Below, in pieces: positions 3,185 through 23,797 of a DNA stretch of 32,099 nt. The notes beneath the pieces are model-generated. The model was given only the letters and a program-made list of their open reading frames with translations, was not told the DNA's origin and made no database searches. This DNA is from Anaerolineales bacterium (GTDB lineage Bacteria; Chloroflexota; Anaerolineae; Anaerolineales; Villigracilaceae). The position numbers and the translations under genes are program-made. Every line of letters begins with the position of its first letter. Position 1 is the first letter of the stretch. The DNA is taken from NCBI GenBank assembly GCA_919902735.1, contig CAKKRM010000001.1, positions 1 to 32,099 of the forward strand, given 5' to 3'.

Positions 3185-3256
3185 CCCCCCCAAGCGACGT
3201 AGACAAACAATCCCCGACGGATGGATGCGTTCGGGGACTATTTATTGTATAGTTAA
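3185..3256 (+). promoter_or_regulatory. Stem-loop module, copy A, upstream of kinase 2
   Basis: First of four copies of one module. It has a C-run followed by CAAGCGACG, a stem with left arm 3205-3219 and right arm 3228-3243 around the loop GATGGATG, then TTGTATAGTTAAG. This is the most diverged copy, with mismatches and a one-base bulge in the stem, but block order and spacing are the same as in copies B-D. It lies about 85 bases before the GTG start of the kinase at 3342. The function is inferred from position only: a promoter/operator or a 5'-leader hairpin. Confidence 0.6.
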
Positions 3257-3341
3257 GTGCCGAAGTATGTCTTTGCGCATTCGTGGTTTCTGGCTGTTTC
3301 GCATGGGAAGGGCACAGCCAGGGAAAAGTGGAGAGGAAATC

Positions 3342-4943
3342 GTGCAAACACTAAAAGATTCAGAGCTTCGCTACCGCCGCCTGTTTGAAGCGGCTCAGGA
3401 TGGGATTCTGATCCTGAACGCTGAGACAGGCATGATCGAGGATGTGAATCCATATTTGATAAACATGCTGGGGTATTCGCGCGAAGAGTTCGTTGAAAAG
3501 AAACTTTGGGAGGTGGGCGCGTTCAAAGACGTCGAAGCCAGCCAGGAGGCCTTCCTTGCATTGCAGAATGAAAAATATATTCGCTATGAAGACCTGCCGC
3601 TTAAAGCAAAGAATGGAAGTTTGGTGCAGGTGGAATTCGTAAGCAATGTATATATGGCGGGCGGCGAGAAGATCATCCAATGCAATATCCGCGATATTAC
3701 AGACCGCAAACATGCCGAGGAAAATATCCGTCAACTTAATGTTGACCTTGAAAGGCGTGTGGAAGAACGCACAGTGGAACTGGTCTACGCCAACCGCATC
3801 AAAGATGAATTCCTCGCGAACATGAGCCATGAATTACGCACCCCGTTGAATGGCATTTTGGGTCTATCTGAAAACCTGTTGGAAGGGGTCTACGGCGCAT
3901 TGATTGAAAAGCAAAAGCATACCGTGCAAGTGATCCAATCCAGCGGCGAACATCTTTTGGAACTGATCAACGATATTTTGGATATCTCCAAGATCGAGGC
4001 GGGGAAATTTGAGTTTAGCCTTGAAGAAGTTAAAGTGGACAAGATTTGCCAGTCGAGCCTGGTCTTCATCAAACAGCAGGCAAATAAAAAATCCATCACA
4101 GTGGAGTATTCATCCCTTGAGAACGCCTTCACGGTTTTTGCAGACCCAAGACGGCTCAAGCAAATCCTCATTAATTTACTGAATAACGCTGTGAAATTCA
4201 CCCCTGAAAATGGAAAGGTAAAACTCGAGATACGGGGGAATGTCAAGGAAAGTCAGTTGCAGTTTTCCATCACAGATACCGGCATTGGCATCGTCCCTGA
4301 AGATGTTCCAAAATTATTCAAACCCTTTACGCAGTTGGATGGCGGCTTGTCCCGTCAACACGAAGGCTCAGGGCTGGGCCTTGCGCTGGTAAAGAAAATG
4401 GTTGAGATGCATGGCGGCAGTGTTGAAGTGCAGAGCAAGCCCGGCCAGGGCAGTCGTTTTTCTTTTGTGCTGCCGTGGGATGAAAAAATACAGGCCGGCA
4501 ACAACCTTGATTCGCTTGAAGGCAGTACTGAAATGGGCGATACCACTTTGGAGGGCAATTCAAAAGTCCGCGGGATAGTTTTGCTCGCGGAAGATTATGA
4601 AACCAACATCCTGGCAACCAGGGATTATCTGGAGAGCCGTGGGTATCAGGTATTTATTGCCCGTGATGGCCGCGAGGTGCTTTCAAAAGCGAATGAAGTT
4701 TTCCCGGATATCATTTTGATGGATATCCAGATGCCCAACTTGAATGGCTTCGACGCAACCCGCCGCCTCCGTGCCGACCCCCGATTTGCCGCTCTTCCAA
4801 TTATCGCTCTCACCGCCTTTGCCATGTTCGGCGACCGCGAACGCTGTCTCGATGCCGGGATGAATGAATATTTGAGCAAGCCTTTTAAATTGAAAGAGTT
4901 GGAACAAATGATAGAACAGTTTTTGCATCCATTCAGCGGATAG
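3342..4943 (+). CDS. PAS hybrid sensor histidine kinase with C-terminal receiver
   Basis: Cytoplasmic kinase of 533 aa, paralogous to the kinase at 150. A single PAS (about 7-122) closely matches the first PAS of that protein. A short coiled coil (about 123-150), HisKA with His163 in MSHELRTP, HATPase_c with INLLNNA, DTGIG and GSGLGL, and a receiver with Asp461 in LMDIQMP follow. ATGs further upstream are in frame, but GTG3342 has GGAGAGGA just before it and starts the protein at the same point as the paralogue, whereas the earliest upstream ATG lies inside the stem-loop of module A. The upstream module A and the stress genes downstream suggest a stress-signalling role; this is inference. No partner regulator is encoded nearby. 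Confidence 0.93.
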   Translation: MQTLKDSELRYRRLFEAAQDGILILNAETGMIEDVNPYLINMLGYSREEFVEKKLWEVGAFKDVEASQEAFLALQNEKYIRYEDLPLKAKNGSLVQVEFVSNVYMAGGEKIIQCNIRDITDRKHAEENIRQLNVDLERRVEERTVELVYANRIKDEFLANMSHELRTPLNGILGLSENLLEGVYGALIEKQKHTVQVIQSSGEHLLELINDILDISKIEAGKFEFSLEEVKVDKICQSSLVFIKQQANKKSITVEYSSLENAFTVFADPRRLKQILINLLNNAVKFTPENGKVKLEIRGNVKESQLQFSITDTGIGIVPEDVPKLFKPFTQLDGGLSRQHEGSGLGLALVKKMVEMHGGSVEVQSKPGQGSRFSFVLPWDEKIQAGNNLDSLEGSTEMGDTTLEGNSKVRGIVLLAEDYETNILATRDYLESRGYQVFIARDGREVLSKANEVFPDIILMDIQMPNLNGFDATRRLRADPRFAALPIIALTAFAMFGDRERCLDAGMNEYLSKPFKLKELEQMIEQFLHPFSG

Positions 4944-4975
4944 TACCATCCCGTGTGTACGGCACAAACTTATTG

Positions 4976-5123
4976 ACTCACCTTACGCACCGCCCATGAT
5001 TCCCTCCCGAAGGACATCGGGACGATGTGAGCGGAGCGAAGGGTCTCTAAGATAGTCGTAGAGACCCTTCGCTCCGCTCAGGGCGACATGACCCTAAAAC
5101 ACGCAAAACTGCGTAAGGTGAGT
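4976..5123. mobile_element. MITE-like element, copy 2 (complete, 148 bp)
   Basis: Perfect terminal inverted repeats ACTCACCTTACGCA / TGCGTAAGGTGAGT, flanked by a 5-bp direct repeat TATTG (4971-4975 and 5124-5128), which is the signature of transposition. The interior holds a perfect 18-bp stem (5030-5047 with 5061-5078). There is no coding capacity, so it would need a transposase supplied in trans. Together with module B it fills the 329-bp gap between kinase 2 and the GlsB gene. Confidence 0.85.
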
Positions 5124-5151
5124 TATTGAAACGAAATTTGATTTGATCCCT

Positions 5152-5222
5152 CCCCCAAGTGACGGAGAGAAACACACCCCAACCGATGGATGCGGCTGGG
5201 GTGTGTTTGTTGTACGATGAAT
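5152..5222 (+). promoter_or_regulatory. Stem-loop module, copy B, upstream of glsB-like gene
   Basis: CCCCCAAGTGACGGA, then a 16-bp stem with one A-C mismatch (5170-5185 with 5193-5208) around the loop ATGGATG, then GTTGTACGATGAA. TACGAT could serve as a -10 box, but no good -35 box is seen at the usual distance. It ends about 50 bases before the ATG at 5273. Confidence 0.72.
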
Positions 5223-5272
5223 TTATGATGCGCGCAGATGCGCGTGTCCATATTATTTATAGGAGAAAAAAT

Positions 5273-5653
5273 ATGATCGATTTCATTTTATGGATCATTG
5301 CCGGAGCATTTGTCGGGTGGATTGCCAGCATTATCATGAAGACCAACAACCGGCAGGGACTGATCGCCGATATTATCGTCGGCATTGTGGGTGCGTTCGT
5401 GGGCGGCTATTTTTTGAGTCCGCTATTTAACATCAGCACGATCAACGAGGGCAACTACAGCATCTCTGCATTGTTGGTATCGCTGGGCGGCGCGATCATC
5501 CTGCTGGCGTTCTCCAAGTTGTTTCGGAATGTGGGCGGTTTTTTGGTGATCGTCATCCTTGCGCTGGTCGTATCCACATACGTCAGTTGCTGGCCGATGG
5601 CTTCCACATCAGCGTTCTGCGCCGCGGTCCGGGCAATTCCATTTTTGCAATAA
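5273..5653 (+). CDS. GlsB/YeaQ/YmgE family stress-associated membrane protein, C-terminally extended
   Basis: A 126-aa hydrophobic protein. Residues 1-88 are a typical transglycosylase-associated (GlsB/YeaQ/YmgE) membrane protein: WIIAGAFVGWIASIIM, then DIIVGIVGAFVGGYF, then a third hydrophobic segment around 66-83. The molecular function of this family is not settled; members are linked to general stress. Start ATG5273 has AGGAG eight bases upstream. Oddly, the protein runs about 35 residues beyond the usual end, with a fourth hydrophobic segment and a Cys-containing tail. Over that tail another forward frame also reads like protein (ISVLRRGPGNSIFA), so a frameshift or fused remnant is possible. 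It follows module B; module C begins eight bases after the stop. Confidence 0.85.
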   Translation: MIDFILWIIAGAFVGWIASIIMKTNNRQGLIADIIVGIVGAFVGGYFLSPLFNISTINEGNYSISALLVSLGGAIILLAFSKLFRNVGGFLVIVILALVVSTYVSCWPMASTSAFCAAVRAIPFLQ

Positions 5654-5660
5654 CCCATCT

Positions 5661-5731
5661 CCCCCAAGTGGCGGATGCGAATACTCCCCAGACGCAGGAT
5701 GTGCCTGGGGAGTATTCATTGTAGGATGAAT
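5661..5731 (+). promoter_or_regulatory. Stem-loop module, copy C, upstream of csbD-like gene
   Basis: CCCCCAAGTGGCGGA, then a perfect 13-bp stem (5679-5691 with 5705-5717) and ATTGTAGGATGAA. The stem sequence differs from copies B and D at several positions, but both arms changed together, so pairing is preserved. The loop contains CAGGATG instead of ATGGATG. It lies about 95 bases before ATG5827. Confidence 0.72.
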
Positions 5732-5826
5732 GTATGACCTGCGTATATTTAGCCGACGCCAAACCCGAAGAGCGCTCCGCACTGCGCCTGCTAAATCTGG
5801 ATTTGAAGATGGAAGAGGATCAAACC

Positions 5827-6066
5827 ATGAACAAAGATGTAATCGAAGGAAAATGGAAACAAATGCGAGGCGAGGCCAAGGCTTGGTGGGGCAAACTTAC
5901 CGACGATGATCTCGATCGAGCCGCTGGTAAGTTCGAAGTCCTGACTGGCTTGCTTCAGGAAAAATATGGCTATACCCGTGAAGCCGCTGCCAATGAGATC
6001 GACAAGCACGTGACTGAGTATGAAGCCAGCCTGAAAAAGAAGATTGTACCCACACCTGCAAAATAA
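5827..6066 (+). CDS. CsbD family general-stress protein
   Basis: A small hydrophilic helical protein of 79 aa. The first block (VIEGKWKQMRGEAKAWWGKLTD, split here as EGKWKQMRGEAK and WWGKLTDDDL) and the following AAGKFEVLTGLLQEKYGY are diagnostic of CsbD/YjbJ proteins, which accumulate in stress in many bacteria and have no defined biochemical activity. Upstream in-frame starts exist from 5734, but ATG5827 gives the usual family length and has a purine-rich GAAGAGGA before it. The last residues include a Lys-rich tail ending in TPAK. It is preceded by stem-loop module C and followed by a second GlsB gene on the same strand. Confidence 0.9.
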   Translation: MNKDVIEGKWKQMRGEAKAWWGKLTDDDLDRAAGKFEVLTGLLQEKYGYTREAAANEIDKHVTEYEASLKKKIVPTPAK

Positions 6067-6133
6067 TCGAAACGTCCCCCCCCTTTCTCTCCTGAAAAAG
6101 AGAAGCAATAAAATATTTACATTGGAGATAAAC

Positions 6134-6397
6134 ATGAACCTTGTTATATACCTTATCGTTGCTGCAATCATCGGCTGGGCCGCGACTGAAATCATGCATG
6201 ACCGCTCGAATCTGCTGCTCAATATTGTCATTGCCGTTGTTGGTGCATTCCTTGGTGGTTACTTTCTCAGCCCCATCTTTAAGGTGGGCACGATCAATGA
6301 TGCGATCACCATCCCAACCATGCTGGTTACGCTGCTGGGGTCCATCATTCTATTGGCAGTTGTCAACCTCTTTCAAAGAGGAAGTCGCGCAATCTGA
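6134..6397 (+). CDS. GlsB/YeaQ/YmgE family stress-associated membrane protein
   Basis: An 87-aa membrane protein with three hydrophobic segments and the family pattern IVAAIIGWAATEIM, then IAVVGAFLGGYFLSPIF. It is paralogous to the protein at 5273 (shared GAFxGGYFLSP), but of standard family length, which supports the view that the other copy is extended. Start ATG6134 has GGAG seven bases upstream. It lies 67 bases after the CsbD gene and probably belongs to the same transcript, because no stem-loop module precedes it. Predicted inner-membrane location; molecular function unknown. Confidence 0.87.
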   Translation: MNLVIYLIVAAIIGWAATEIMHDRSNLLLNIVIAVVGAFLGGYFLSPIFKVGTINDAITIPTMLVTLLGSIILLAVVNLFQRGSRAI

Positions 6398-6421
6398 TCA
6401 ATTCGTTTTTTAGCCCGTAAT

Positions 6422-6473
6422 AAGTCGGTTGTGTGAAGCAACTCCATGCAGAGTTGTTGAGGGCAACCGACTT
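6422..6473. other. Branched hairpin after the GlsB gene
   Basis: Perfect 10-bp arms AAGTCGGTTG (6422-6431) and CAACCGACTT (6464-6473) enclose a smaller hairpin CAACTC...GAGTTG. It follows the stop of the GlsB gene by 24 bases. There is no T-run after it, so it may be a weak terminator, an mRNA stabiliser or a structured leader of the next gene. Confidence 0.45.
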
Positions 6474-6559
6474 CTATATGAAAACATTTCTCGAATAAAC
6501 ATCATTTAGGGTGCGAGTCTTACCCCTTTTACAGAAATAATTCAGAAAGAGGAATCAAA

Positions 6560-6973
6560 ATGTCAAACGACAGTAGAGTATCAGAAGTTAGAACGTCTCA
6601 AAGCGAACCGGAAAGGGAGCAGCGTATCTTCACTTTTAAAGCCACTCAATTGATCTGGCTGTTGTTCGGAATTCTCGAAGCGCTCATCGCACTTCGCATC
6701 GGATTGATGCTGATAGGGGCCAACCCTGCCAGCCCGATCGTTGCCTTGATCTATGGATTTACCAATTTGTTCCTGTTTCCCTTTACCGGATTAGTCGGTT
6801 CGCCGGCGGCCGGCAACATGGTGCTTGAACTTTCTTCCATGTTTGCCATGTTGATCTATGGTCTGATCGCATGGACTACGGAAAGAGTAGTCTGGCTGAT
6901 CTTTTATCGCCCGCGCGGTCCAGTTGTAGCCGTTACTGAAACTTCGACGAGTGAGAACCATACCACCCGATAA
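6560..6973 (+). CDS. YggT-like small membrane protein (paralogue 1)
   Basis: 137 aa. A polar N-terminus of about 25 residues is followed by three hydrophobic segments: about 28-52 (LIWLLFGILEALIALRIGL), the segment around LIYGFTNLFLFPFTGLVG, and one ending near TTERVVWLIFYRPRG. The pattern of a hydrophobic pair with FxLRxxLxLxGANP and LIYxFTxxFLxPF resembles YggT-family proteins; no biochemical role can be given. Start ATG6560 has AGAGGA upstream. It is followed after 26 bases by a clear paralogue, so the pair arose by duplication. It probably belongs to the envelope-stress cluster. Confidence 0.72.
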   Translation: MSNDSRVSEVRTSQSEPEREQRIFTFKATQLIWLLFGILEALIALRIGLMLIGANPASPIVALIYGFTNLFLFPFTGLVGSPAAGNMVLELSSMFAMLIYGLIAWTTERVVWLIFYRPRGPVVAVTETSTSENHTTR

Positions 6974-6999
6974 ATCCAGGTTCAAACTGAAGAGTCAAA

Positions 7000-7413
7000 A
7001 TGTTAAATGAAAGCAATGTAACAGAAGCGAAATCAGTGCAAAGAGAACCGGGTCTAACGCGGCGCTTCCTCTCGTTTAAAGCCACACAGATCACCCTCTT
7101 AAGTTTCAGCATACTCGAAATCCTGATCGCACTGCGCATCATCCTGAAACTAATCGGGGCCAATCCGGACAACCCAATCGTTGCATTGATCTACGGGTTT
7201 ACAGCCATGTTTCTTATTCCCTTTGTGGGATTGATCAAATCGCCCACAACCGGCGGCATGATTCTGGAGACCTCTTCCATATTTGCAATCGTAATCTATG
7301 CCTTGACCGCTGTGGCATTTGAAAAACTGATCTGGGTGATTTTCTCGCGGCCGCGCAGCCTGGAGACATCGGTTACTGAAACTACGATCAACGATAATCA
7401 AACCATGCCATAA
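7000..7413 (+). CDS. YggT-like small membrane protein (paralogue 2)
   Basis: 137 aa, the same length and layout as the preceding gene, with the shared features FKATQ, SILEILIALRIILKLIGANP, LIYGFTAMFLIPFVG and a cytoplasmic-looking tail after FSRPR. The two copies have diverged mainly in the polar N-terminus and in the C-terminal tail. Start ATG7000 follows GAAGAG. The hydrophobic segments predict an inner-membrane protein; a function is not known. It sits within one co-directional run of genes (6134-8194). Confidence 0.72.
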   Translation: MLNESNVTEAKSVQREPGLTRRFLSFKATQITLLSFSILEILIALRIILKLIGANPDNPIVALIYGFTAMFLIPFVGLIKSPTTGGMILETSSIFAIVIYALTAVAFEKLIWVIFSRPRSLETSVTETTINDNQTMP

Positions 7414-7428
7414 ATCAAAGAGGCCAGG

Positions 7429-7599
7429 ATGGATAATTCCTTCGACCAGCAAGAGTCCGATACACAAAAATCGAGAAGCTTGTTTTCCAACCTGCAGATT
7501 TTGTATGATGTACTAAATTGGCTCGCCGGCCTGTTTCAGTTGACGGAAGAAGAGCGAGATGAAGCTGGTATCTATTTTGATAATCGACATGAGAAGTAA
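7429..7599 (+). CDS. Small protein of 56 aa, unknown
   Basis: An ATG at 7429 with AGAGG a few bases upstream opens a 56-codon frame ending at TAA7597. The protein is acidic and amphipathic: a polar start, a central helix-like segment (LQILYDVLNWLAGLFQL), then TEEERDEAGIYFDNRHEK. It lies 15 bases after the YggT-like gene and 60 bases before the YtxH gene, with the same direction and tight spacing, which supports a real gene. No family was recognised. Confidence 0.6.
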   Translation: MDNSFDQQESDTQKSRSLFSNLQILYDVLNWLAGLFQLTEEERDEAGIYFDNRHEK

Positions 7600-7659
7600 T
7601 TTGCGGGCGGCAGGACAACCCTGGCACGTGTAAACATTTAGATAATAAGGAGAACCACA

Positions 7660-8013
7660 ATGAACAACGAAAATCAAGAACTTGAAGATCACAACAATAA
7701 TATTTTAGGCGTTTTAGCTGGAATGCTGATCGGCGCTCTGGCCGGCGCTATAACGATGCTTTTGCTGGCGCCGCAATCTGGAAAAGATACAAGAACACAG
7801 ATCCAGGAAAAAGGCATGGAACTGCGCGACCGTACCAGTGGAATCGTGGAAGATGCCATGGCGCAGGTACGCCTGGACAGGAATCGGTTAACGGTCGCTG
7901 GACGTGAAAAGATCAAAGACCTAAAAAAACAAGGCCAGGAACTGGTGGTAGAGCAACTGGAGCATATATCCGAAGCTGCACAAGCTGGAAAAAAGGCCAT
8001 ACAAGGTTCCTAA
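7660..8013 (+). CDS. YtxH domain-containing protein
   Basis: 117 aa. One transmembrane segment near the N-terminus (about 16-37, GVLAGMLIGALAGAITMLLLA) is followed directly by the YtxH signature APQSGKDTR, then a long, charged amphipathic helical tail (about 45-117) rich in Gln, Lys and Glu. YtxH proteins are small stress-associated membrane-anchored proteins; the molecular role is not established. Start ATG7660 has AGGAG upstream. It is followed by a 49-aa membrane protein and a terminator, so it lies near the end of the stress transcript. Confidence 0.87.
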   Translation: MNNENQELEDHNNNILGVLAGMLIGALAGAITMLLLAPQSGKDTRTQIQEKGMELRDRTSGIVEDAMAQVRLDRNRLTVAGREKIKDLKKQGQELVVEQLEHISEAAQAGKKAIQGS

Positions 8014-8044
8014 AAATTGAACGATTTCAGAAAAGGAGAATTTC

Positions 8045-8194
8045 ATGAAGATCACTAAAAATATTGGTTTCCTGTTACTGTCCATTTGGCTCATTCTCAC
8101 AGGATTATCCGCATTCATTTCAATGGGCGGATTGGGCACGATCCTGGCATTGCTTGCCATAGCGGCTGGCGTATTTATTTTGTTGGGACGGTAG
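8045..8194 (+). CDS. Small membrane protein of 49 aa, unknown
   Basis: ATG8045 with AAAGGAG upstream opens a 49-codon frame ending at TAG8192. The protein is almost wholly hydrophobic with two probable membrane segments (IGFLLLSIWLILTGLSAF and the Gly/Ala-rich TILALLAIAAGVFILLG). It is 31 bases after the YtxH gene and six bases before a strong terminator, which makes it the last gene of the transcript. No defined family was recognised. Confidence 0.7.
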   Translation: MKITKNIGFLLLSIWLILTGLSAFISMGGLGTILALLAIAAGVFILLGR

Positions 8195-8199
8195 GCCAA

Positions 8200-8240
8200 T
8201 TGTCACCCGGATAATCCAGTCGGGTGACAATTATTTTTTT
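8200..8240 (+). terminator. Rho-independent terminator of the stress-gene run
   Basis: A perfect 10-bp stem TTGTCACCCG (8200-8209) / CGGGTGACAA (8221-8230) with an 11-base loop, followed by TTATTTTTTT. It starts six bases after the stop of the 49-aa gene. Confidence 0.9.
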
Positions 8241-8269
8241 CAAAAGAAGGTCCCTTGCTAGTGTTAATC

Positions 8270-8348
8270 ACTCCCCTTACGCGATTTTGAGAAAAAGTGA
8301 TGTTGTTCCCGAATGGGGAACGACATACCATTACTGCGTAAGGTGAGT
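8270..8348. mobile_element. MITE-like element, copy 3 (79 bp)
   Basis: The ends ACTCCCCTTACGC and GCGTAAGGTGAGT are inverted repeats with one mismatch, flanked by the 5-bp direct repeat TAATC (8265-8269 and 8349-8353). The interior is short and unrelated to copy 2 apart from a small hairpin TTCCC...GGGAA. It has no coding capacity. Confidence 0.8.
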
Positions 8349-8440
8349 TAATCATCATCTTATTAACAGCCAACGATCACACGCACGGCTGTCAGTAGCA
8401 GGTTTGGCGCATTCGACAATTATATTAATATGGTTCATCT

Positions 8441-8511
8441 CCCCCAAGTGGCGGAGATAAACACACCCCGGCCGATGGATGCGGCCGGGGTGTGTTTACT
8501 GTATGATGAAT
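8441..8511 (+). promoter_or_regulatory. Stem-loop module, copy D, upstream of Lmo0937-like gene
   Basis: CCCCCAAGTGGCGGA, then a perfect 16-bp stem (8459-8474 with 8482-8497) around the loop ATGGATG, then ACTGTATGATGAA. This is the best-formed copy. TATGAT fits a -10 box without a matching -35 box. It ends 33 bases before ATG8544, which has its own AGGAG. Confidence 0.75.
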
Positions 8512-8543
8512 TCAAGAACAAATCATTCAATAGGAGAAATCTC

Positions 8544-8702
8544 ATGCTTACCTGGATCATTGTAATTTTGCTCATACTCTGGCTGCTCGGATATTTCGGT
8601 CCGAATGTCTACTCTGGAATTCCGCGGAGCGGCAACGTTTTACACACATTGCTTGTTATTGTCGCCATTCTCATTATTTTGAGACTCTTGGGCATCGCAT
8701 AA
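8544..8702 (+). CDS. Lmo0937-like small membrane protein
   Basis: A 52-aa protein with two hydrophobic segments (WIIVILLILWLLGYF and LLVIVAILIILRLLGIA) joined by a short polar loop containing a GN-HTLL stretch. This matches the Lmo0937/DUF5670 type of two-helix membrane peptides found across bacteria, often near stress genes; the function is unknown. Start ATG8544 has TAGGAG eight bases upstream; the longer frame from 8430 runs through the stem-loop module and is rejected. It appears to be monocistronic, with module D as its leader or promoter. Confidence 0.78.
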   Translation: MLTWIIVILLILWLLGYFGPNVYSGIPRSGNVLHTLLVIVAILIILRLLGIA

Positions 8703-8751
8703 CGATCCTATTCATCGGCGGAAATCTTTATGGTACTGGATCACTAAATTT

Positions 8752-9699
8752 ATGAATCACAAACTGAGTGACTTTTCTGTTTTCGTATTGATGCTGACGT
8801 TGCTGACCCTGTCTTCGTGTAATGGAATGACAGTGACTCCGTCTGTGGCTGGGCAGGAAGAATTGCTGGTTACACCAGCTCAATTGATTTTGCCTTGCGA
8901 AGCGTGCGATCAGGCGACTCTGGCAGCGGCGCTGACACAGGAAAAATTTAACACTGAAAATCAGGCTGCGGCCACCGCTGAGATCGTGCGCGCCAACGCA
9001 CAGGCAACTTTGAATTCAGCCAACGCAACATTGAGCGCGGCCCTCACCCAGGAGCAAAATACCACCAATATCATTGTGGCCCAAATTGCAGCCACGGCTG
9101 AAGTCGCGCGTGCCAATGCGCAGGCCACTTTGTTTTCAGCGGGATCAACCCAGAGCGCCGCATTTACCCAGGATTCCATCCGTCAGACCCAAATGGCAGA
9201 TATGGCGACAACGAGCGCTCAATCCCTGCTAATTCAACAAAATAATGACGCACTCGCGGCTGGCACCCAGACGGCAGTCGCCAATACCATTGCCACCCAG
9301 ACTCAATCTGCTGCTGCAACATCGCAATGGTATACGGACCAAACACGTCAACGTGATGAGCAAAGGCAGGGGCCAATTGCTTTCCTGTGGATGTGGTGCT
9401 TTCCCAGCTTTGTTGTGCTGTCTGCGATCTTTGTTCTTTGGGCAATTTGGCGCTGGCAAAAACTTCAACAAGTCAAACAACGAGTTCTCGAAAATCCAGT
9501 TGAAAAGTTACAGCCGCCAATGGCCGGGCTCCATCATCGCCGACAGGATAATGTGTTGTTTTATGTAGAAAGTGATGTTGTTGATGATGGCTATCAGGTT
9601 ACAACGCCTGACGATCATGTGTCCCAATGGATGAATGAGGTCAAAACCAAACTACTAGACAGTGATAAGAAGGATGAAGATGATAGTACAAACAATTGA
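8752..9699 (+). CDS. Ala/Thr/Gln-rich lipoprotein-like protein with transmembrane segment
   Basis: 315 aa. A hydrophobic N-terminal segment ends in LSSC (Cys23), a plausible lipobox, so it may be a lipoprotein. Residues about 50-200 are low-complexity, rich in Ala, Thr, Gln and Asn, and probably alpha-helical, and contain a duplicated block. A strong transmembrane segment (about 208-234, Trp-rich) follows, then a charged tail ending in an Asp/Glu/Lys cluster. The topology suggests an exported helical region anchored in the membrane with a cytoplasmic tail. The final 20 bases overlap the start of the next gene, which suggests translational coupling. No function is assigned. Confidence 0.72.
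   Translation: MNHKLSDFSVFVLMLTLLTLSSCNGMTVTPSVAGQEELLVTPAQLILPCEACDQATLAAALTQEKFNTENQAAATAEIVRANAQATLNSANATLSAALTQEQNTTNIIVAQIAATAEVARANAQATLFSAGSTQSAAFTQDSIRQTQMADMATTSAQSLLIQQNNDALAAGTQTAVANTIATQTQSAAATSQWYTDQTRQRDEQRQGPIAFLWMWCFPSFVVLSAIFVLWAIWRWQKLQQVKQRVLENPVEKLQPPMAGLHHRRQDNVLFYVESDVVDDGYQVTTPDDHVSQWMNEVKTKLLDSDKKDEDDSTNN
8962..9177 (+). repeat. 120-bp-period internal duplication in the Ala-rich protein gene
   Basis: The codons for residues 71-102 and 111-142 encode two copies of one 32-residue block (AATAEIVRANAQATL and AATAEVARANAQATL, each followed by SA..T.SAA.TQ). Many third positions differ, so the duplication is old and protein-level constrained. Confidence 0.75.
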
Positions 9700-10387
9700 C
9701 CCCAATCCTTCCGTTAAACAAACGCGGGTAATCAGGGCAAAAGTAGCAACCGTTTTGACCAAATGGGGATTATTGCCGCGATTTAAACGTTGGCGATTAA
9801 CACAAGACCCGGATACCGGAATGATCGTTCTGTTTGGCATACTCAACAACAGATATATCGCAACGCATACTTCCATTCCGTTCGGTCATTACTTCGATCC
9901 GCGTTTATTGCACGATCTCGCTAACGAATTGCAATTGCAAGTCGTGTCTTGCAACAGTGACGGTCTGCGTTATGCCTTTATCCTGGACCGCGGCCAGCTC
10001 GGAAAACTGCCGACACATATAGATTTTCCCTATATTGACAAGGGGAAACTTTTGGTCAGAGTGATTTACGAAAGCCCCCTGCACCCCCCGCCGGTTCCGC
10101 CTGTTAATAATAGGATGGTTGATGACCACACACTTGTGGATGAGGGTGTGGGCGCTTTCTTGAAGGTCTTTGACGATATCAAGCTTAGGGACGATGCTGT
10201 CGCAACGGACTTCACTCACTCCCTGCCCGAGATCGTTGTGATAGACAAGGAGGAATTCGATAAACGGGTTGCGGAGCATGAAGCTGACCGACTAAGGATA
10301 AAAAATATCAAGAAATTGCTTGACGAGTCTGCTGGAAAGCTTCAAAAACTTCACAATCGCAATCAAATTAAACCAGTAAATCCATAA
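9680..10387 (+). CDS. Protein of unknown function, 235 aa, coupled to the upstream gene
   Basis: No family was recognised. The protein is soluble, without signal peptide or membrane segment. A basic N-terminal half contains WGLLPRFKRWRL and a compact, mixed-secondary-structure region (about 30-130). A Pro-rich linker (HPPPVPPV) and an acidic/helical C-terminal part rich in Asp, Glu and Lys follow. GTG9662, ATG9674 and ATG9680 are possible starts; ATG9680 has AAGAAGG at the best distance. It overlaps the upstream membrane-protein gene by 20 bases, so the two products probably act together. The last gene pair of the run follows after 20 bases. Confidence 0.7.
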   Translation: MIVQTIDPNPSVKQTRVIRAKVATVLTKWGLLPRFKRWRLTQDPDTGMIVLFGILNNRYIATHTSIPFGHYFDPRLLHDLANELQLQVVSCNSDGLRYAFILDRGQLGKLPTHIDFPYIDKGKLLVRVIYESPLHPPPVPPVNNRMVDDHTLVDEGVGAFLKVFDDIKLRDDAVATDFTHSLPEIVVIDKEEFDKRVAEHEADRLRIKNIKKLLDESAGKLQKLHNRNQIKPVNP

Positions 10388-10407
10388 GTTTAAATCAAGG
10401 AGAAAAA

Positions 10408-10608
10408 ATGGGACGCAAAGGTGTTAGTAAACGCAAGCCAAAACAATCCAACTCGTTTTCCAACGACAAAAACAAAAGCTCTTCCAATGCTCACCCGAAT
10501 CAGGGCACATCTGTGCAGTCGCTTGTGAAGGACAATGGAGCCACTCTCAACAAGGGCGGAACAAATTCTTTGGGAGAATCAGATAAAAAGAATAGAAAAG
10601 GAAGGTAG
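10408..10608 (+). CDS. Small basic low-complexity protein, 66 aa, unknown
   Basis: Start ATG10408 has AAGGAG six bases upstream. The protein is very hydrophilic, rich in Lys, Ser, Asn and Gly (opens MGRKGVSKRKPKQSN, ends KKNRKGR), without hydrophobic core, and so is probably disordered. The strong ribosome site and the position 20 bases after the previous gene support a real gene. Nucleic-acid binding is possible from charge alone; no family was recognised. Confidence 0.6.
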   Translation: MGRKGVSKRKPKQSNSFSNDKNKSSSNAHPNQGTSVQSLVKDNGATLNKGGTNSLGESDKKNRKGR

Positions 10609-10630
10609 GGAATACCGTGGAGAAAGCACT

Positions 10631-10768
10631 ATGAAATTACACCTGTTATTTATTGGTATGGATTTGCTTACATTGCTGGCTTATCCAATCGTGTTTGTAT
10701 ATTGCAAATTCCGTCAGTTTTCAAAATCAAAGGAAAGTATAGGGCGTTTTAACTTCAAAAAAAGTTAA
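10631..10768 (+). CDS. Small membrane protein, 45 aa, unknown
   Basis: ATG10631 has GGAGA seven bases upstream. One hydrophobic segment (LLFIGMDLLTLLAYPIVFVY) is followed by a short basic tail (KFRQFSKSKES). It lies 22 bases after the basic protein gene. Its TAA stop overlaps the TAATA target duplication of MITE copy 4, so the element inserted right at the 3' end without altering the protein. Confidence 0.5.
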   Translation: MKLHLLFIGMDLLTLLAYPIVFVYCKFRQFSKSKESIGRFNFKKS

Positions 10769-10770
10769 TA

Positions 10771-10856
10771 ACTGATGTTACGCACCGTCCCGAAGGTTTA
10801 GACTACAAATAGGCTTAATTTACGAGAACCTTCGGGACGTTCCGCGTAAGGTGAGT
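10771..10856. mobile_element. MITE-like element, copy 4 (86 bp)
   Basis: Right end GCGTAAGGTGAGT, left end ACTGATGTTACGC (diverged), flanked by the 5-bp direct repeat TAATA (10766-10770 and 10857-10861). The interior holds inverted arms CGTCCCGAAGGTT and AACCTTCGGGACG. The left end has lost several matches, so this copy is older. Confidence 0.75.
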
Positions 10857-10962
10857 TAATAAATAAAAATGCCATGAAAAAAAACAGGGTTGGGAATATA
10901 TACATCATTCTTTGATCGTGTGAATACCTCAGCATGAGAAGAGAATTGTTTTGATACGCTTT

Positions 10963-11038
10963 AGGACTTTCGCTCGCTCCTCTTGTTTTGCATGTCACCC
11001 TCCCGATGTCCTTCGGGAGAATGACAAGCGAAAGTCCT
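10963..11038. repeat. Nested inverted repeat between convergent genes
   Basis: A perfect 12-bp outer stem AGGACTTTCGCT (10963-10974) / AGCGAAAGTCCT (11027-11038) encloses an inner 7-bp hairpin CTCCCGA/TCGGGAG (11000-11019). It sits between the last plus-strand gene and the 3' end of the yifB gene and could act as a two-way terminator or be a dispersed palindromic repeat. The rest of 10862-11087 shows no gene. Confidence 0.6.
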
Positions 11039-11087
11039 GACGCTTAACAAATCTGATTGAACATGATCGGATTTCTGCAATAAAAAA

Positions 11088-15141: not shown

Positions 15142-15248
15142 TACAAAGCCATTAGAATCGATGTTTGAGCACTGGCTCGTCAGTGTCTATAAATTCCAGC
15201 TCAAAGAGAAATTGTTGGTTCGGCTTGTTGCCGAAAGGATGGGTTCTT

Positions 15249-16580
15249 ATGAAAAGACGACGAATATTATTTGCCTTTATTGTTGCGACTTTTCTCACAT
15301 TAATTGTGGGTTTGTTATCTAATTTAGCTGCGACATATCTGGCACCAACTTGGGCAGATAAGCCATGGATAATCTACGTTGCATTAGCTGTGACCTTCCT
15401 GATTTCATTGGCCGTTTCCAGCCATCTATTTCTCAAAACTTTACCAGATTTCGAAACCACTGCTCAAACTAATTCACTGTCTTCCCTTTCTTCGCCAGAC
15501 CAACCAAGCAGTAAACAACCGCAGATAATTGCAAGCCAACTTCCAGGAAAATCTTACCGCGAGCTCATTGGTCGAGACATCCTGATTGGGGATGTATTGG
15601 CGGCGCTGCGCGATCCTTCTGGCAAGTGGATCGTCACTGTTGATGGTATGGGTGGGATTGGCAAGACTGCCCTAGTTCGCGAACTTGCAGATCGTTGTGC
15701 GTCAGAACACCTATTTGATGCTGTGGTGTGGGATCAAGCTCCAAAAGAATCACAAGGTCTACCAACAACAGCGGGAAAAGGCAAAGGAACATTAACCTAC
15801 GAGACAGTTTTAGACTCAATTGCGCGCCAGTTAGGAGCCTTGGATGTACCGCGATTGAAAAGACCAGAAAAGGAAATACGTGTCAAGGGTTTGCTCCAGG
15901 TTCAGCGCGTACTCATTGTTTTGGACAATTTGGAAACGGCAAAAGAATCACAGAATGAGATCGTCCGCCGATTGTTACCTTTGCTGAATCCAAGCAAAAC
16001 TTTGATGACCAGCCGCCATCGCTTTCAAGGAGATGTATATGCAGTTCACCTACCTGGTTTGGATGAAGATGGCGCTCTTAGATTTATTCGCCAGGAAGCA
16101 AAGGAGAAAAATATTCAAAACGTTTCAAACGCAAGTGTTTCGGAACTGAAACAAATTGCAGAAACTACAGGGGGCTCCCCCTTGGCGCTCAAGCTTGTGG
16201 TTGGGCAATTAAGTCTGCTGCCCCTCGCAACGGTGTTGGAGCAGCTACGAAAAGTAAAACTTCCCAAGGGCGATAGTGATAAAAATGATTATGTACGTTT
16301 TTACAAGGGTATATTCTCGCCATCCTGGAAATTAATGTCCGAGGATGGGAAGAAATTGTTGATATCAATGTCCCACTTTGCGCCAGGCATTGGAGGAACT
16401 TATGAAGCGGTCAAGGCTACAAGTGATCTGACCAACGAGATACTTGCAGGTTGTATTGATGAATTGTGGCGGCTTTCCTTTTTGGAAAAAGGCGAGTCTC
16501 CTAGCTTGAAGAAGGTACGATATTATTTACACGCGTTGACGCAATACTTTGTTTTGTCAGACATTGTGAAGGTATTGTGA
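15249..16580 (+). CDS. Membrane-anchored NB-ARC (STAND) ATPase lacking its own sensor domain
   Basis: 443 aa. Two N-terminal hydrophobic segments (about 6-30 and 40-62) are followed by a Ser/Pro/Gln linker. Then comes an NB-ARC NTPase with Walker A GMGGIGKT (133-140), Walker B VLIVLDN (221-227), sensor TSRHR (254-258), the GLPL-like GGSPLAL (308-314) and a winged-helix domain ending in LHALTQYF (427-434). STAND ATPases use such a core as a switch that oligomerises when a C-terminal sensor binds its ligand. Here the protein stops nine residues after the winged helix, where a TPR sensor would begin. ATG15249 has an AAAGGA-type site upstream; a TTG at 15165 is less likely. It is the first gene of a six-gene cluster. 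The membrane segments could be the effector, acting by membrane damage (inference). Confidence 0.88.
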   Translation: MKRRRILFAFIVATFLTLIVGLLSNLAATYLAPTWADKPWIIYVALAVTFLISLAVSSHLFLKTLPDFETTAQTNSLSSLSSPDQPSSKQPQIIASQLPGKSYRELIGRDILIGDVLAALRDPSGKWIVTVDGMGGIGKTALVRELADRCASEHLFDAVVWDQAPKESQGLPTTAGKGKGTLTYETVLDSIARQLGALDVPRLKRPEKEIRVKGLLQVQRVLIVLDNLETAKESQNEIVRRLLPLLNPSKTLMTSRHRFQGDVYAVHLPGLDEDGALRFIRQEAKEKNIQNVSNASVSELKQIAETTGGSPLALKLVVGQLSLLPLATVLEQLRKVKLPKGDSDKNDYVRFYKGIFSPSWKLMSEDGKKLLISMSHFAPGIGGTYEAVKATSDLTNEILAGCIDELWRLSFLEKGESPSLKKVRYYLHALTQYFVLSDIVKVL

Positions 16581-16640: not shown

Positions 16641-18266
16641 ATGTCTGATAAATGGCAGGATTACTATCAGCAAGGTACAGATCGATATATCTCTTATTAC
16701 TCAGATTTTGTAGAAAGATTCAACAGTCTTTTACAACCAGATATAAAGCGTGGGCGCGATCACCATAAACACCGAGTCCGTCACGAGCAAGAGGAGCGTC
16801 GCCTTGAGGGGGAGACATTAAATGCAATCGAGGAGGAAAGGGCAAACGTCCAAGAAGCATTAAGGATGGCTCATACTGGCCGGCAATGGGCTACTCTTTC
16901 TAGCATGGCGCAGATTCTTGTGACTTTTTTTGATAGACGCGGTTACTGGGATGACTGGATTTTAACCCAAAGACTTGTTCTGGACACTGTGCCTAGAAGT
17001 GGCAGGACACAAATCATTGGTGTTGCTTATAACAATATGGGCAGTGCTTATATTGCAGCATCACAGTGGGGCAAGGCTAAGCGATATTTAGGGCTTGCGC
17101 TGAAATACTTTCACGAGAATGGAGACATCGAAAATGAGGGGCGAACTTTAACCAACCTAGGGATCGTTAATGCAGAACAAGGTCACATCAAAGAGGCAAT
17201 CAAATACTACGAGAAAGATCTTGAGATCTGTCGAAAAATTCATGACATACAAGGCGAGGCTGCGACGTTAGGTAACTTGGCTCATGCCTACCGAGATTCG
17301 GGTAGATGGGATGATTCAGTTCGCGTTTTCACTGAAGTGCTCAAGATATTTAAGAGTACTGGTGATCGGCATTCGGAAGCCATGACTCTAAATAACCTAG
17401 CTTTAGTGACTGAAGATATTGGAAAGTGGGATGATGCTATTCGACTTTATCGACAGGCCCTTGAAATGCGACGTGCAATGGGAGATCAATATACTGAAGG
17501 CATTATATTGGCAAATATGGCTGGGGTTTATAGGAAGAAAGGTCAATGGAAGCCTGCCATAGAATATTATCAACAAGCTTTGAAGATATATCAAAAGTTC
17601 AACGACAAGAAGGGTGAAGTGCAAGTAAATTCGAATATGGCTAATGCCTTACTTCGAACGGGTGAAATTGTTCGGGCTATTGGTTATTATCAATCAGCCT
17701 TGGATTCCTTACATCGGATTAATGATCGTTCGGGTGAAGCGCAAATTCTAACAAATTTAGGTGTTGCCTATCAAAAACAGGGGCGTTTTGAGGAATCCCA
17801 TCGGGCCTTGGATGGCGCGCTTTCGATTTCTCGCGAATTGGAGGATCATCATGGCGAAAGCAGCGCGTTGCAAAATTTGGGAGTTACATTTGAGGTTGAA
17901 GGTAATCTATCTTCCGCTTTAAATTGTTACAGACAAAGCCTTAGATTGAAAAAGAAGTTGGGAGATCATCATGGCCAAGGAACTGCATTGGTCGGCTTAG
18001 GGAATTTGGCGTATAAAGAAAGAAAATTGGAAAAAGCACTGGATTATTACCAACAGAGTCTGATCATAAGGAAGAAATTAGGTGATCGTTATGGGGAAGG
18101 TCTCACCCTGGCAAATCTCGGCAGAATGTATCTTGAACTAGGAAAAACTAAGCGGGCTACCAAGTACTGGCAGCAATCGCAAAATGTCCTTATGGAATTG
18201 GATGTGCCTGAAGCTGTAGAGGTGGCAAGTTGGTTAAAAGAATTAGAAGCGGATAATGATAAGTAA
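16641..18266 (+). CDS. Stand-alone STAND-type linker plus TPR sensor protein 1
   Basis: 541 aa, soluble. It opens with the linker that follows the winged helix in single-chain NB-ARC/TPR proteins: RYISYYSDF at 15-23, EEERANV at 64-70, GYWDDW at 101-106. About ten TPR-type repeats of 40 residues follow (about 128-530), each with the core [LY]xNxG...A..Y...L.I....GD. It has no NTPase motif. Repeats of 40 rather than 34 residues are of the kinesin-light-chain/TPR_12 kind used for protein or peptide binding. It starts 60 bases after the NB-ARC gene, without a strong ribosome site; no frameshift joining the two was seen. Expected to recognise a ligand and signal to the NB-ARC protein (inference). 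Confidence 0.85.
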   Translation: MSDKWQDYYQQGTDRYISYYSDFVERFNSLLQPDIKRGRDHHKHRVRHEQEERRLEGETLNAIEEERANVQEALRMAHTGRQWATLSSMAQILVTFFDRRGYWDDWILTQRLVLDTVPRSGRTQIIGVAYNNMGSAYIAASQWGKAKRYLGLALKYFHENGDIENEGRTLTNLGIVNAEQGHIKEAIKYYEKDLEICRKIHDIQGEAATLGNLAHAYRDSGRWDDSVRVFTEVLKIFKSTGDRHSEAMTLNNLALVTEDIGKWDDAIRLYRQALEMRRAMGDQYTEGIILANMAGVYRKKGQWKPAIEYYQQALKIYQKFNDKKGEVQVNSNMANALLRTGEIVRAIGYYQSALDSLHRINDRSGEAQILTNLGVAYQKQGRFEESHRALDGALSISRELEDHHGESSALQNLGVTFEVEGNLSSALNCYRQSLRLKKKLGDHHGQGTALVGLGNLAYKERKLEKALDYYQQSLIIRKKLGDRYGEGLTLANLGRMYLELGKTKRATKYWQQSQNVLMELDVPEAVEVASWLKELEADNDK

Positions 18267-18308
18267 TATCTGGTCTTCATCGGTTTCCATGGAATAGAAT
18301 TTACTTCT

Positions 18309-19985
18309 ATGAACCAATCTGGACGCGTACATGAGATCTATGAACAATCGGGAAGGCGGTATATTGGCTATCTCTTAGATTTAGTCCGCAACAGTCCCGA
18401 TATTCATGTAAATAAGCTCACGGCTGGTCTCTTAGACTTGGAACTTGAGAATATTATTCAAGCAGTAACCCTCGCAAAAGCCCTTCATCTTTGGTTGTCT
18501 GTCAGAGAGTTCGGGGCAAAGTTAGCACCTTTTCTAGATGATCGTGCTTATTGGTATATATGGGAGAACATTGCCGAATTAGCACTCGAGGCAGCGGAAC
18601 ATTTGGATGATACAGAAGCAAGAGCAGAAGCACTCGGAAATTTGGGAACAGTATACATCCGCCGGGGACAATGGGATGATGCAATTATTTGTTATGGCCA
18701 AGCACTAGAGATATTTCGTCAGCTAGGTAACAAACTCCACGAAGCATTGACACTAAGTAATCTGGGGGCCGTATCTTTCGATAAAGGTGATTGGTCTCAT
18801 TCACTTGAGCTCTATGAGGAATCGCTGACTATTTTCACGCAATTGGGAAACAAATCAAAAGAAGCTGACGTATTAGTGAACCTCGCTGCATTGAATAGTT
18901 CAACAGGGAGTTGGGGCGATGCCAGGCGAAATCTTCTGTTGTGTATCAATACTTACGAAGAACTCGGCGACCCTCTTGGTAAGGCTATGGCTTTATCTAA
19001 TCTTGGAAGTGTTTACCTTGAAGAAAGAAAACTAGACGATGCAATCAAGGTTTATACCCAAGCCTTAACCATTTTCGAGGAAATGGATGATCGCTTTGAT
19101 GCCGGTAGGGTTTATACAAATTTAGGCAATGTCTTCTCGGCAAAAGGGGAGTGGCAGCGCGCTATCGAATTTTATGAACGAGACTTGGCTATTTGCCGCG
19201 AATTGGGTGACCAAGAGGGATTGGCAACTACTCAAATGAGCATTGGGGCGAGTTATCGACTCCAAGCTAAATGGGGTGATGCAATAATGAATCTCGAGCA
19301 GGCTCTGGTTATTTTTCGCAACCTTGGCGATTTGCACGGTTTGAGCCAAACCCTCAATAATTTGGGGAATGTATTTCTTCAACTGGAACGATTTGAGGAT
19401 GCTCTTGGTTGTTACCAAGAAGATCTAGTTGCATGTCGTCAAATTGGAGATCGACCCGGTGAAAGCACAATCCTAAACAACTTAGGCTTGGTGTACGCAC
19501 AAATTAACCGCGAGCAGGATGCGATCGAGTGTTATGAACAGGGTCTGCAAATCAGCCGAGAATTAATGGATAGAGACAATGAATCATATCTGTTATCCAA
19601 TTTAGGCTCTCTCCATCTGGCACTCGGCCATGTTATGGCGGCTGAAACTTGCATGGAACAAGGTTTGATGATTTGCCGTGAACTGGGGGATTCCCAGGGT
19701 GAAAGCACAAATTTGATGAATCTTGGAACGATTTATCGATCTCAAGGGGAACTGGAGAAAGGTTTACAATCTTATAAAGACTGTCTTGTAATAAAGCAAT
19801 CATTAGATGACCAGTTAGGCATTGCGGAAGTGAATGCATGCATAGGCGGCTTGTATTTAGACCAAGGCCTCAAAGATGAAGCAGTCGTGACTCTTGAAGA
19901 ATCTTTCAAGATTCTCCGACAACTCGAATCACCACTATCCGCCAAAGTATCTCAATGGCTCGCTGAAGCAAAAGAAGAAAAATAA
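18309..19985 (+). CDS. Stand-alone STAND-type linker plus TPR sensor protein 2
   Basis: 558 aa, soluble. Linker motifs: SGRRYIGY at 14-21, ELENII at 45-50 and AYWYIW at 80-85. About eleven 40-residue TPR-type repeats run from about 108 to the end, very regular in the middle (SNLGSVY, TNLGNVF, NNLGNVF, NNLGLVY). The protein ends in an acidic/basic helix (KVSQWLAEAKEEK) that resembles the end of sensor 1 (VASWLKELEADNDK), so the C-terminal cap is conserved as well. It begins 42 bases after the previous gene, and no clear ribosome site is visible. It is paralogous to the neighbours but not recently duplicated; similarity is at protein level. Confidence 0.85.
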   Translation: MNQSGRVHEIYEQSGRRYIGYLLDLVRNSPDIHVNKLTAGLLDLELENIIQAVTLAKALHLWLSVREFGAKLAPFLDDRAYWYIWENIAELALEAAEHLDDTEARAEALGNLGTVYIRRGQWDDAIICYGQALEIFRQLGNKLHEALTLSNLGAVSFDKGDWSHSLELYEESLTIFTQLGNKSKEADVLVNLAALNSSTGSWGDARRNLLLCINTYEELGDPLGKAMALSNLGSVYLEERKLDDAIKVYTQALTIFEEMDDRFDAGRVYTNLGNVFSAKGEWQRAIEFYERDLAICRELGDQEGLATTQMSIGASYRLQAKWGDAIMNLEQALVIFRNLGDLHGLSQTLNNLGNVFLQLERFEDALGCYQEDLVACRQIGDRPGESTILNNLGLVYAQINREQDAIECYEQGLQISRELMDRDNESYLLSNLGSLHLALGHVMAAETCMEQGLMICRELGDSQGESTNLMNLGTIYRSQGELEKGLQSYKDCLVIKQSLDDQLGIAEVNACIGGLYLDQGLKDEAVVTLEESFKILRQLESPLSAKVSQWLAEAKEEK

Positions 19986-20017
19986 TGTCAACAATACATT
20001 CCGACGATGCCTGAAAT

Positions 20018-22738: not shown

Positions 22739-23780
22739 TACAGAATCTGAGTTGGCAAGTTCTACGTTTACTGAGTCCGGACACCGTTTTGTCTATCATT
22801 TCGGAGTGCTAGCACACGAGGCCGCTCAGAAATTAAAACCCGAATTGCGCTGGAAAAAAGCGGTTCGACAGTTTTCGAAGTCACGATTCGAAACAATAAA
22901 AGAGATGGAGCTTAACTCCGTCATGCTGTTGGAACTAGAACGGGATAATCTGTTTAATTCTATTGAGTGGGCGCATCGTAATCTGGAATGGAAAATGGTA
23001 TGCCAGATCGTGGATGACTTGGCGACATACTTTAATATTCGTTCTTATTGGTCAGAATGGGTTCATTTTGCGGAATTAGCTGTGGGTGATGCTGAGTTAG
23101 TACAAGACGGAAAACTGAAGGCTATTGCCCTAAACAATCTTTCAGTCGTATATCGTCAATTAGACCGTCTTCCAGAAAGCATTCAATGCTGCCAAGAGAG
23201 TATTATGCTTTGTCAACAAAACGGCGATCACTATGGTAAAGCGTTGTCCTTGGGAAATCTTGGCGGTTCTTATTTTGCTCAAAATGATTTTGACGCTTCG
23301 CATGAGAGTTATACCGCCGCAATTGAAATATTTAAGACGTTGAAAGAATCGTATGAGCAAGCGCAGAGCCTAATGGGAATCGGCATTGTTTTGGCAAAAC
23401 AACAAAAATTAGACGAAGCATCGTCGTATCTAAATGAGTGTCTAAAAATGCAAAGGAAGCTTGGCGATCGATTTGGTGAAGCTCAGACACTTAATAATTT
23501 AGGTATCACACAAAGGATGCAAAAGAGATTCGATCTATCAATCAAAAGCTTTCAAAAAAGCTTGCTTATCAAAGAAGAAATTGGTGATCAGCAGGGTATG
23601 GCAAACTCCTTAACTAATCTTGCTATGTCCTATGAGCGTTCGGGTCAAATTAATTTTGCGGTCAATACCTTGGAAAAAACATTGGCTTTGCTCAGGTACG
23701 ATAATCCATCCGATGTTGAACGTGTTGTCCGAAGACTTGAGAAGCTCCGTCTTCAGCAAAATGAAAAAAACCAAGCATAA
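22731..23780 (+). CDS. Stand-alone STAND-type linker plus short TPR sensor protein 4
   Basis: 349 aa, the shortest of the series. Linker motifs: ESGHRFVYH at 15-23, LERDNLF at 69-75 and SYWSEW at 105-110. Only about five 40-residue TPR-type repeats follow (NNLSVVY, GNLGGSY, MGIGIVL, NNLGITQ, TNLAMSY), then a basic helical end (VRRLEKLRLQQ). The ATG overlaps the end of sensor 3 by eight bases and the gene stops 17 bases before sensor 5, which shows one transcript. The linker is longer than in the other sensors by a basic insertion around 40-60. A five-repeat superhelix would be enough for one peptide-binding groove. Confidence 0.85.
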   Translation: MIDTESELASSTFTESGHRFVYHFGVLAHEAAQKLKPELRWKKAVRQFSKSRFETIKEMELNSVMLLELERDNLFNSIEWAHRNLEWKMVCQIVDDLATYFNIRSYWSEWVHFAELAVGDAELVQDGKLKAIALNNLSVVYRQLDRLPESIQCCQESIMLCQQNGDHYGKALSLGNLGGSYFAQNDFDASHESYTAAIEIFKTLKESYEQAQSLMGIGIVLAKQQKLDEASSYLNECLKMQRKLGDRFGEAQTLNNLGITQRMQKRFDLSIKSFQKSLLIKEEIGDQQGMANSLTNLAMSYERSGQINFAVNTLEKTLALLRYDNPSDVERVVRRLEKLRLQQNEKNQA

Positions 23781-23797
23781 GAGTTCTTCGGAATATT

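Follow-up and report, generated by a model that had tools for sequence, protein, structure and literature searches.

Miniature inverted-repeat transposable elements (MITEs) mobilised by insertion sequences (ISs) are, according to PMC10969869, short elements with terminal inverted repeats, a flanking target duplication and no transposase gene, in copy numbers far above that of the IS. Among IS families, PMC2266710 gives IS701 a 4-bp duplication, a length of 1.4–1.55 kb (1,400–1,550 bp) and a YREK motif that is usually absent or incomplete; IS4 a duplication of 7–13 bp and the YREK motif; and IS1634 an AT-rich duplication of 5–6 bp, a length of 1.5–2 kb, ends starting with C and no YREK. Repetitive extragenic palindromes (REPs) of the GTAG and CGTC super-families measure 20–40 bp and reach high copy numbers, the CGTC type having no known dedicated transposase, according to PMC3733652. 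Here we describe repeats that share the MITE features listed above, found in a 32,099-bp stretch of an Anaerolineales genome (the window; positions 1–32,099 of contig C1, in a source genome of 4.26 Mb and 356 contigs). These repeats are very probably MITEs moved in trans by a DDE IS of about 1.1 kb from the IS4/IS701 superfamily, and some of them contain still smaller palindromes.

Window elements and the parent insertion sequence

The window holds three complete copies, given here without strand, between duplications given on the forward strand. A 148-bp MITE with perfect 13-bp terminal inverted repeats and an interior hairpin (4976–5123) lies between two TATTG repeats (4971–4975 and 5124–5128), a 79-bp MITE with a different type of interior (8270–8348) between two TAATC repeats (8265–8269 and 8349–8353), and an 86-bp MITE (10771–10856) between two TAATA repeats (10766–10770 and 10857–10861). 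These coordinates and exact 5-bp duplications are as an earlier sequence-only reading had given them. That reading also had all copies ending in one terminus, which holds exactly for five of the seven ends (ACTCACCTTACGC); the 8270 end has one mismatch, and the diverged left end at 10771, ACTGATGTTACGC, has three. Positions 1–55 (unstranded) are what the contig retains, on the right side, of another MITE of the 148-bp type, whose truncation is the end of contig C1 and not biological. At up to three mismatches, the window contains 12 terminus matches; 100 shuffled versions gave 4.7 on average and 11 at most.

Comparison with a relative bears out the reading of the 148-bp copy as an insertion. 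Over 3690–4976 the window is 90% identical to genome G008 (L185), and alignment of the joined flanks shows a single TATTG in this relative in place of the window's TATTG, element and TATTG. The 8270 and 10771 copies, where relatives align poorly, gave no alignable empty site; the best match to the 10771 locus (L186, G016) aligns without the MITE, is not resolved at base level and was not counted.

The family is abundant far beyond the window. Exact 13-bp termini occur 220 times in the source genome (109 forward, 111 reverse; reversed-pattern control, 0 and 0), and with up to one mismatch allowed the counts are 173 and 172 (control, 7 and 3). Across the genus, 34 of 57 genomes, the source genome included, carry at least one exact terminus, with a range of 0 to 220 per genome. 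A family sample yielded an exact terminus in 46 of 120 genomes and 15 of 26 genera, where lone exact 13-mers may be chance. We extracted 112 non-overlapping elements, 70 of them from the source genome. They were drawn from 100 places among the matches listed, from roughly one locus in each relative and from 13 places in G007, a base that is not random. An exact duplication of at least 5 bp flanks 59 of the 111 elements with flanks (39 of the 70 in the source genome alone), compared with 3.3 for shuffled flanks; it measures 5 bp in 45, 6 bp in 13 and 7 bp in one. The 5-bp duplications of the window are thereby refined to 5 or 6 bp family-wide. The 58 duplications of these two lengths comprise 37 different sequences, and the flanking 5-mers are thus not part of the repeat. 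The nine copies of a 152-bp subfamily have a mean identity of 99.2%, which argues that movement was recent.

The sequence-only reading had advised a search for an IS that shares these termini and is flanked by 5-bp duplications; one is present in the sister species G044 (L056:1501–2616). It is 1,116 bp long, ends in ACTCACCTTACGCAG...CTGCGTAAGGTGAGT, is flanked by TATTT and holds one open reading frame (ORF) between its termini, encoding a 357-aa DDE transposase. This IS, together with the empty site, supports the earlier interpretation of the window repeats as MITEs. By the features tested (terminal inverted repeats, a duplication that is single in the empty site, multiple copies, no transposase gene and a parent IS), the family is a MITE family, and the IS surviving in the sister species is most likely its mover.

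The parent transposase scores 351.8 bits against NCBIfam NF049921 (IS701 family transposase; cut-off 250), a cut-off also passed by all four relatives scanned, and in Pfam it exceeds the cut-offs of DDE_5, DDE_Tnp_1 and DDE_Tnp_2. Its other NCBIfam scores are 99.6 bits for IS4_4 (cut-off 250) and 17 bits for IS1634 (cut-off 100), and a PDB sequence search returned no transposase relative at E ≤1. The YREK motif follows an exact spacing rule; the YREK residues of the parent transposase are 273, 276, 280 and 287 and are invariant in eight of eight aligned sequences of 57–80% identity. We place the first catalytic aspartate, provisionally, in an IVDD stretch, which one of the eight (L201) lacks. 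Both flanks could be read for seven full-length IS copies. Six of them, 1,104–1,170 bp long, have like ends and are flanked by a duplication, which is 5 bp in L056, L064/L200, L205 and L207 and 6 bp in L065/L201 and L203.

The source genome retains two transposase fragments, covering residues 1–77 (94%) and 294–357 (95%) on contigs C105 and C120. Both matches are contig-internal, and the fragment covering 294–357 stands in tandem with a 148-bp MITE, with one TAATA between them. These fragments may be what is left of the formerly active enzyme. The window itself has no transposase, as had been noted earlier: none appears in the ORF list by reading (no family search), and the search with the parent transposase matched only C105 and C120. 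In G027 and G014, IS-gene fragments lie at many contig ends, as expected because a multicopy IS breaks assembly. The IS matches 16 loci in metagenome-assembled genomes titled Chloroflexi, Anaerolineae/Anaerolineales, Chloroflexaceae, Oscillochloris, Pyrinomonadaceae, Chitinophagales and Desulfamplus, one of the 16 being titled Klebsiella pneumoniae, perhaps wrongly. At least ten exact termini occur in 8 of 9 genomes with an IS match of at least 45% identity versus 12 of 48 others, a comparison uncorrected for relatedness. Other genomes of the same genus also hold distant IS4/IS701-like elements (L072, L079) with ends TAGGACTTACGCAA.

Target preference and tandem junctions

Target preference was read from isolated sites, the 43 of 58 with a 5- or 6-bp duplication and no second copy within 30 bp. 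Empty targets tend towards T/TA-N-TA/A (34 sites) or T/TA-NN-TA/A (9 sites). The outer T and A are both present in 39 of the 43, and 41 have one or both of the half-sites TTA and TAA in full. This agrees with the earlier remark that targets begin with TA and extends the preference one base further on each side. Two half-sites spaced 1 or 2 bp apart would explain both duplication lengths as well as the TA start. Because the first base of the element is A and the last is T, insertion rebuilds the outer target bases on both sides.

MITEs also occur directly next to each other. There are 18 junctions of two outward-facing ends, and every gap is 5 or 6 bp (gaps of 3 to 9 bp were searched). Different subfamilies meet at several of them (86 and 148 bp at L137, 152 and 86 bp at L114, 173 and 112 bp at L111), so the two members must have inserted independently rather than arisen by doubling of a single copy. 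The target duplications flanking a tandem pair sometimes disagree, as at L109.

A mechanism can be proposed on this basis. The transposase would recognise the ends of about 13 bp, prefer TTA and TAA half-sites 1 or 2 bp apart, and cut at T^TA of each strand, which would give duplications of 5 or 6 bp. With A and T at its termini, the element would recreate T/TAnTA/A at both junctions, and a later insertion into the duplication of an earlier copy would give a tandem pair.

Several observations weigh against this account. An exact duplication of at least 5 bp is missing from 52 of the 111 elements; ten of these failures are a script artefact in which a real end was paired with an IS-gene stretch (L056, L061, L062, L065, L066, L069, L078, L084, L086 and L089), others are decayed or mispaired, and some have both ends perfect and still no duplication (L013, L104), where recombination or misjoined contigs are perhaps the cause. 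Both half-sites are complete in just 12 of the 43 isolated targets, an alignable empty site is available for only one of the three complete window copies, and one full-length relative of the IS, L202, lacks a duplication although its ends are alike. No intact transposase was found in the 356-contig assembly of the source genome with the parent transposase as query. The 12 of 48 genomes with at least ten termini have no IS match of at least 45%, so either the MITEs persist after the IS is lost or they depend on a different transposase.

Those 12 genomes, and the presence in the genus of ISs with other ends, would suit a scenario in which a different, unrelated transposase moves the copies and the ends are shared with the 1,116-bp IS merely by common ancestry. 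We consider this very improbable, given that MITE and IS ends are identical over 13 bp, that their duplications are alike and that the source genome carries an IS remnant in tandem with a MITE.

Hairpin interiors, micro-palindromes and other window features

The interiors were said to hold palindromes; more precisely, they comprise several hairpins unrelated to one another, and smaller palindromes lie inside some of these. Clustering of the extracted elements gave 34 groups, 17 of which include a member with an exact duplication of at least 5 bp; the grouping is imperfect, since it includes groups related to each other, groups that combine unlike interiors and groups made of false pairs. The count of unrelated interiors is therefore inexact but exceeds the three of the window. 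An origin of the interiors by internal deletion of the IS was considered and rejected, since likeness stops at the terminal 13–19 bases or so, by reading, the interiors not each having been aligned to the IS. In the window at 10950–11051, an inverted repeat (84% arms) surrounds a palindrome, 24 nt of which match the 148-bp MITE interior (92%); the arm of this repeat holds AGGACTTTCGCT, which recurs at each end of the IS-like locus L070.

Strong hairpins could also be read as REP-like palindromes that are retained because they serve the cell, for instance by terminating transcription, with mobility secondary or over. The 148-bp copy folds strongly as single-stranded DNA (−52.4 kcal/mol, z −10.8), and the ORFs around the 58 scored sites are codirectional at 33, convergent at 17 and divergent at 8, by a crude ORF rule with no expectation computed. 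The exact duplications, the empty site, the near-identical young subfamily, the unrelated interiors and the uneven count of exact termini across the 57 genomes all speak against this explanation, and the window has no Rfam match at gathering scores; we regard it as improbable, while noting that function and mobility are compatible and not mutually exclusive.

Length variants of the MITEs differ by small palindromes: 149 from 126 bp by 23 bp, and 173 from 154 bp by 19 bp. The same 26 bp separates 112 from 86 bp and 133 (L041) from 107 bp (L045). In the window, the 148-bp MITE contains the 23-bp palindrome CATCGTCCCGATGTCCTTCGGGA (5005–5027, reverse strand), which its 126-bp sister form lacks, and the 86-bp MITE represents, without the interruption, the 112-bp subfamily, whose members carry the 26-bp palindrome.

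The 26-bp unit starts with CACTT, ends with GGTG, and has 71 matches at up to three mismatches in the source genome (control, 0). It is present in 35 of the 57 genomes of the genus; in a phylum sample searched at one mismatch it appears in 4 of 301 genomes, namely 4 of 8 in the genus and 0 of 293 outside. The first 33 sites (29 from the source genome, four from others) have A before the unit in all 33, CGA before it in 32 and CGA^AG in 30. At 30 sites in relatives, A again precedes the unit at every one and CGA^AG is found at 16, which points to a looser target there; in total, A precedes the unit at 63 of 63 sites. Uninterrupted relatives were found for 18 of 34 sites and cover seven host contexts (shifted cuts, 0 of 136; sites in one host are not independent), and the other 16 have none among the 662 kb compared. 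The 23-bp unit has an empty relative for 4 of 12 sites (shifted control, 0 of 48) and the 19-bp unit for 2 of 6, where shifted controls also match (4 of 24). The 26- and 23-bp types nest in either order, with 26 bp in 23 bp at L058 and a 24-bp variant in 26 bp at L093. In the single-stranded fold, the target's CCG is paired with a CGG on the 3' side of the 26-bp unit. REP/RAYT systems are marked by a Y1 transposase gene with the repeat on its flanks. The source genome has four matches to Y1_Tnp (PF01797), and the 2–3.4 kb loci around them contain no 26- or 23-bp unit and no MITE end; the 26-bp unit may even so depend on one of these genes from elsewhere.

We tentatively propose that the 26-bp palindrome, and perhaps the 23- and 19-bp palindromes too, are mobile elements in their own right, ranking with the smallest known, that insert without target duplication after A (mostly CGA^AG) inside hairpins of MITEs, of other repeats and of each other. 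The CCG/CGG pairing might serve as guide and target for a single-strand (HUH-type) enzyme. If so, the MITEs would be layered assemblies, with IS ends around a hairpin and micro-palindromes within it. Hairpins are deletion-prone, and the shorter forms could instead have arisen by precise hairpin deletion, in which case the palindromes are not insertions at all; the weak tests for the two smaller units and the 16 sites lacking an uninterrupted relative leave room for this. We nonetheless regard it as rather unlikely: the 26-bp sequence has seven host contexts that are also known uninterrupted, A precedes it at every site read, and it nests both ways with the 23-bp type.

The window has further repeats of its own. 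Four copies of about 79 bp (CTCCCCCAAGTGGCGGAG, a GC-rich hairpin, then TGTATGATGAA) lie at 3185–3263, 5150–5228, 5659–5737 and 8439–8517, preceding ORFs whose products look like small membrane proteins of the stress type and a histidine kinase (by reading, no family search). The 8439 copy is better matched than its own flanks in L187 and L194, and the sequence looks like a shared regulatory element. Positions 501–800 and 927–1226 form a 300-bp duplication (88%) within one long ORF read as a PAS-type histidine kinase. Successive long tetratricopeptide-like ORFs fill 16641–25420 and adjoin an NB-ARC-like ORF at 15165–16580, these names again given by reading.

Comparison with known systems

Set beside the MITEs described in PMC10969869, the present family differs in having several unrelated hairpins between the same ends, and in having about 13–19 terminal bases, by reading, in common with its IS. 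The parent IS fits none of IS701, IS4 and IS1634 as PMC2266710 describes them, though NCBIfam names it IS701. It resembles IS701 in passing the NF049921 cut-off and departs from it in its 5–6 bp duplication, its length of 1.10–1.17 kb in six copies and its invariant YREK. With IS4 it shares the YREK residues, and it differs in duplication length and in its low IS4_4 score. The AT-rich 5–6 bp duplication recalls IS1634, from which the parent IS is set apart by ends that start with A (L056), a length of 1.1 kb, the presence of YREK and a score far below that cut-off. ISAba11 has the motif HHEK, unlike the parent transposase, in which Y273 and R276 are invariant in all eight sequences.

The 26-bp unit is, like the REPs of PMC3733652, a small high-copy palindrome; it differs in carrying neither a GTAG nor a CGTC tag at an end, in having a preferred target and in lying inside other repeats. 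A literature search of titles and abstract openings found no description of the MITE family or of the 26-bp unit, which is not proof that they are unpublished. Cyanobacteria, a different phylum, have very small dispersed repeats (Elhai, 2008) that reportedly appear to insert into other repeats, a likeness to the micro-palindromes.

With a parent IS in a sister species, termini by the hundred in one genome and a target that insertion appears to restore, the MITE family offers a clean system for MITE bursts after transposase loss. The micro-palindromes make the spread of 20–30 bp bacterial palindromes without a known enzyme a testable question, for which the 26-bp unit, its preferred target, its 71 copies in one genome and its many filled and empty pairs are the material. 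MITEs with a parent IS are a known kind; those described here carry nested, apparently mobile micro-palindromes.

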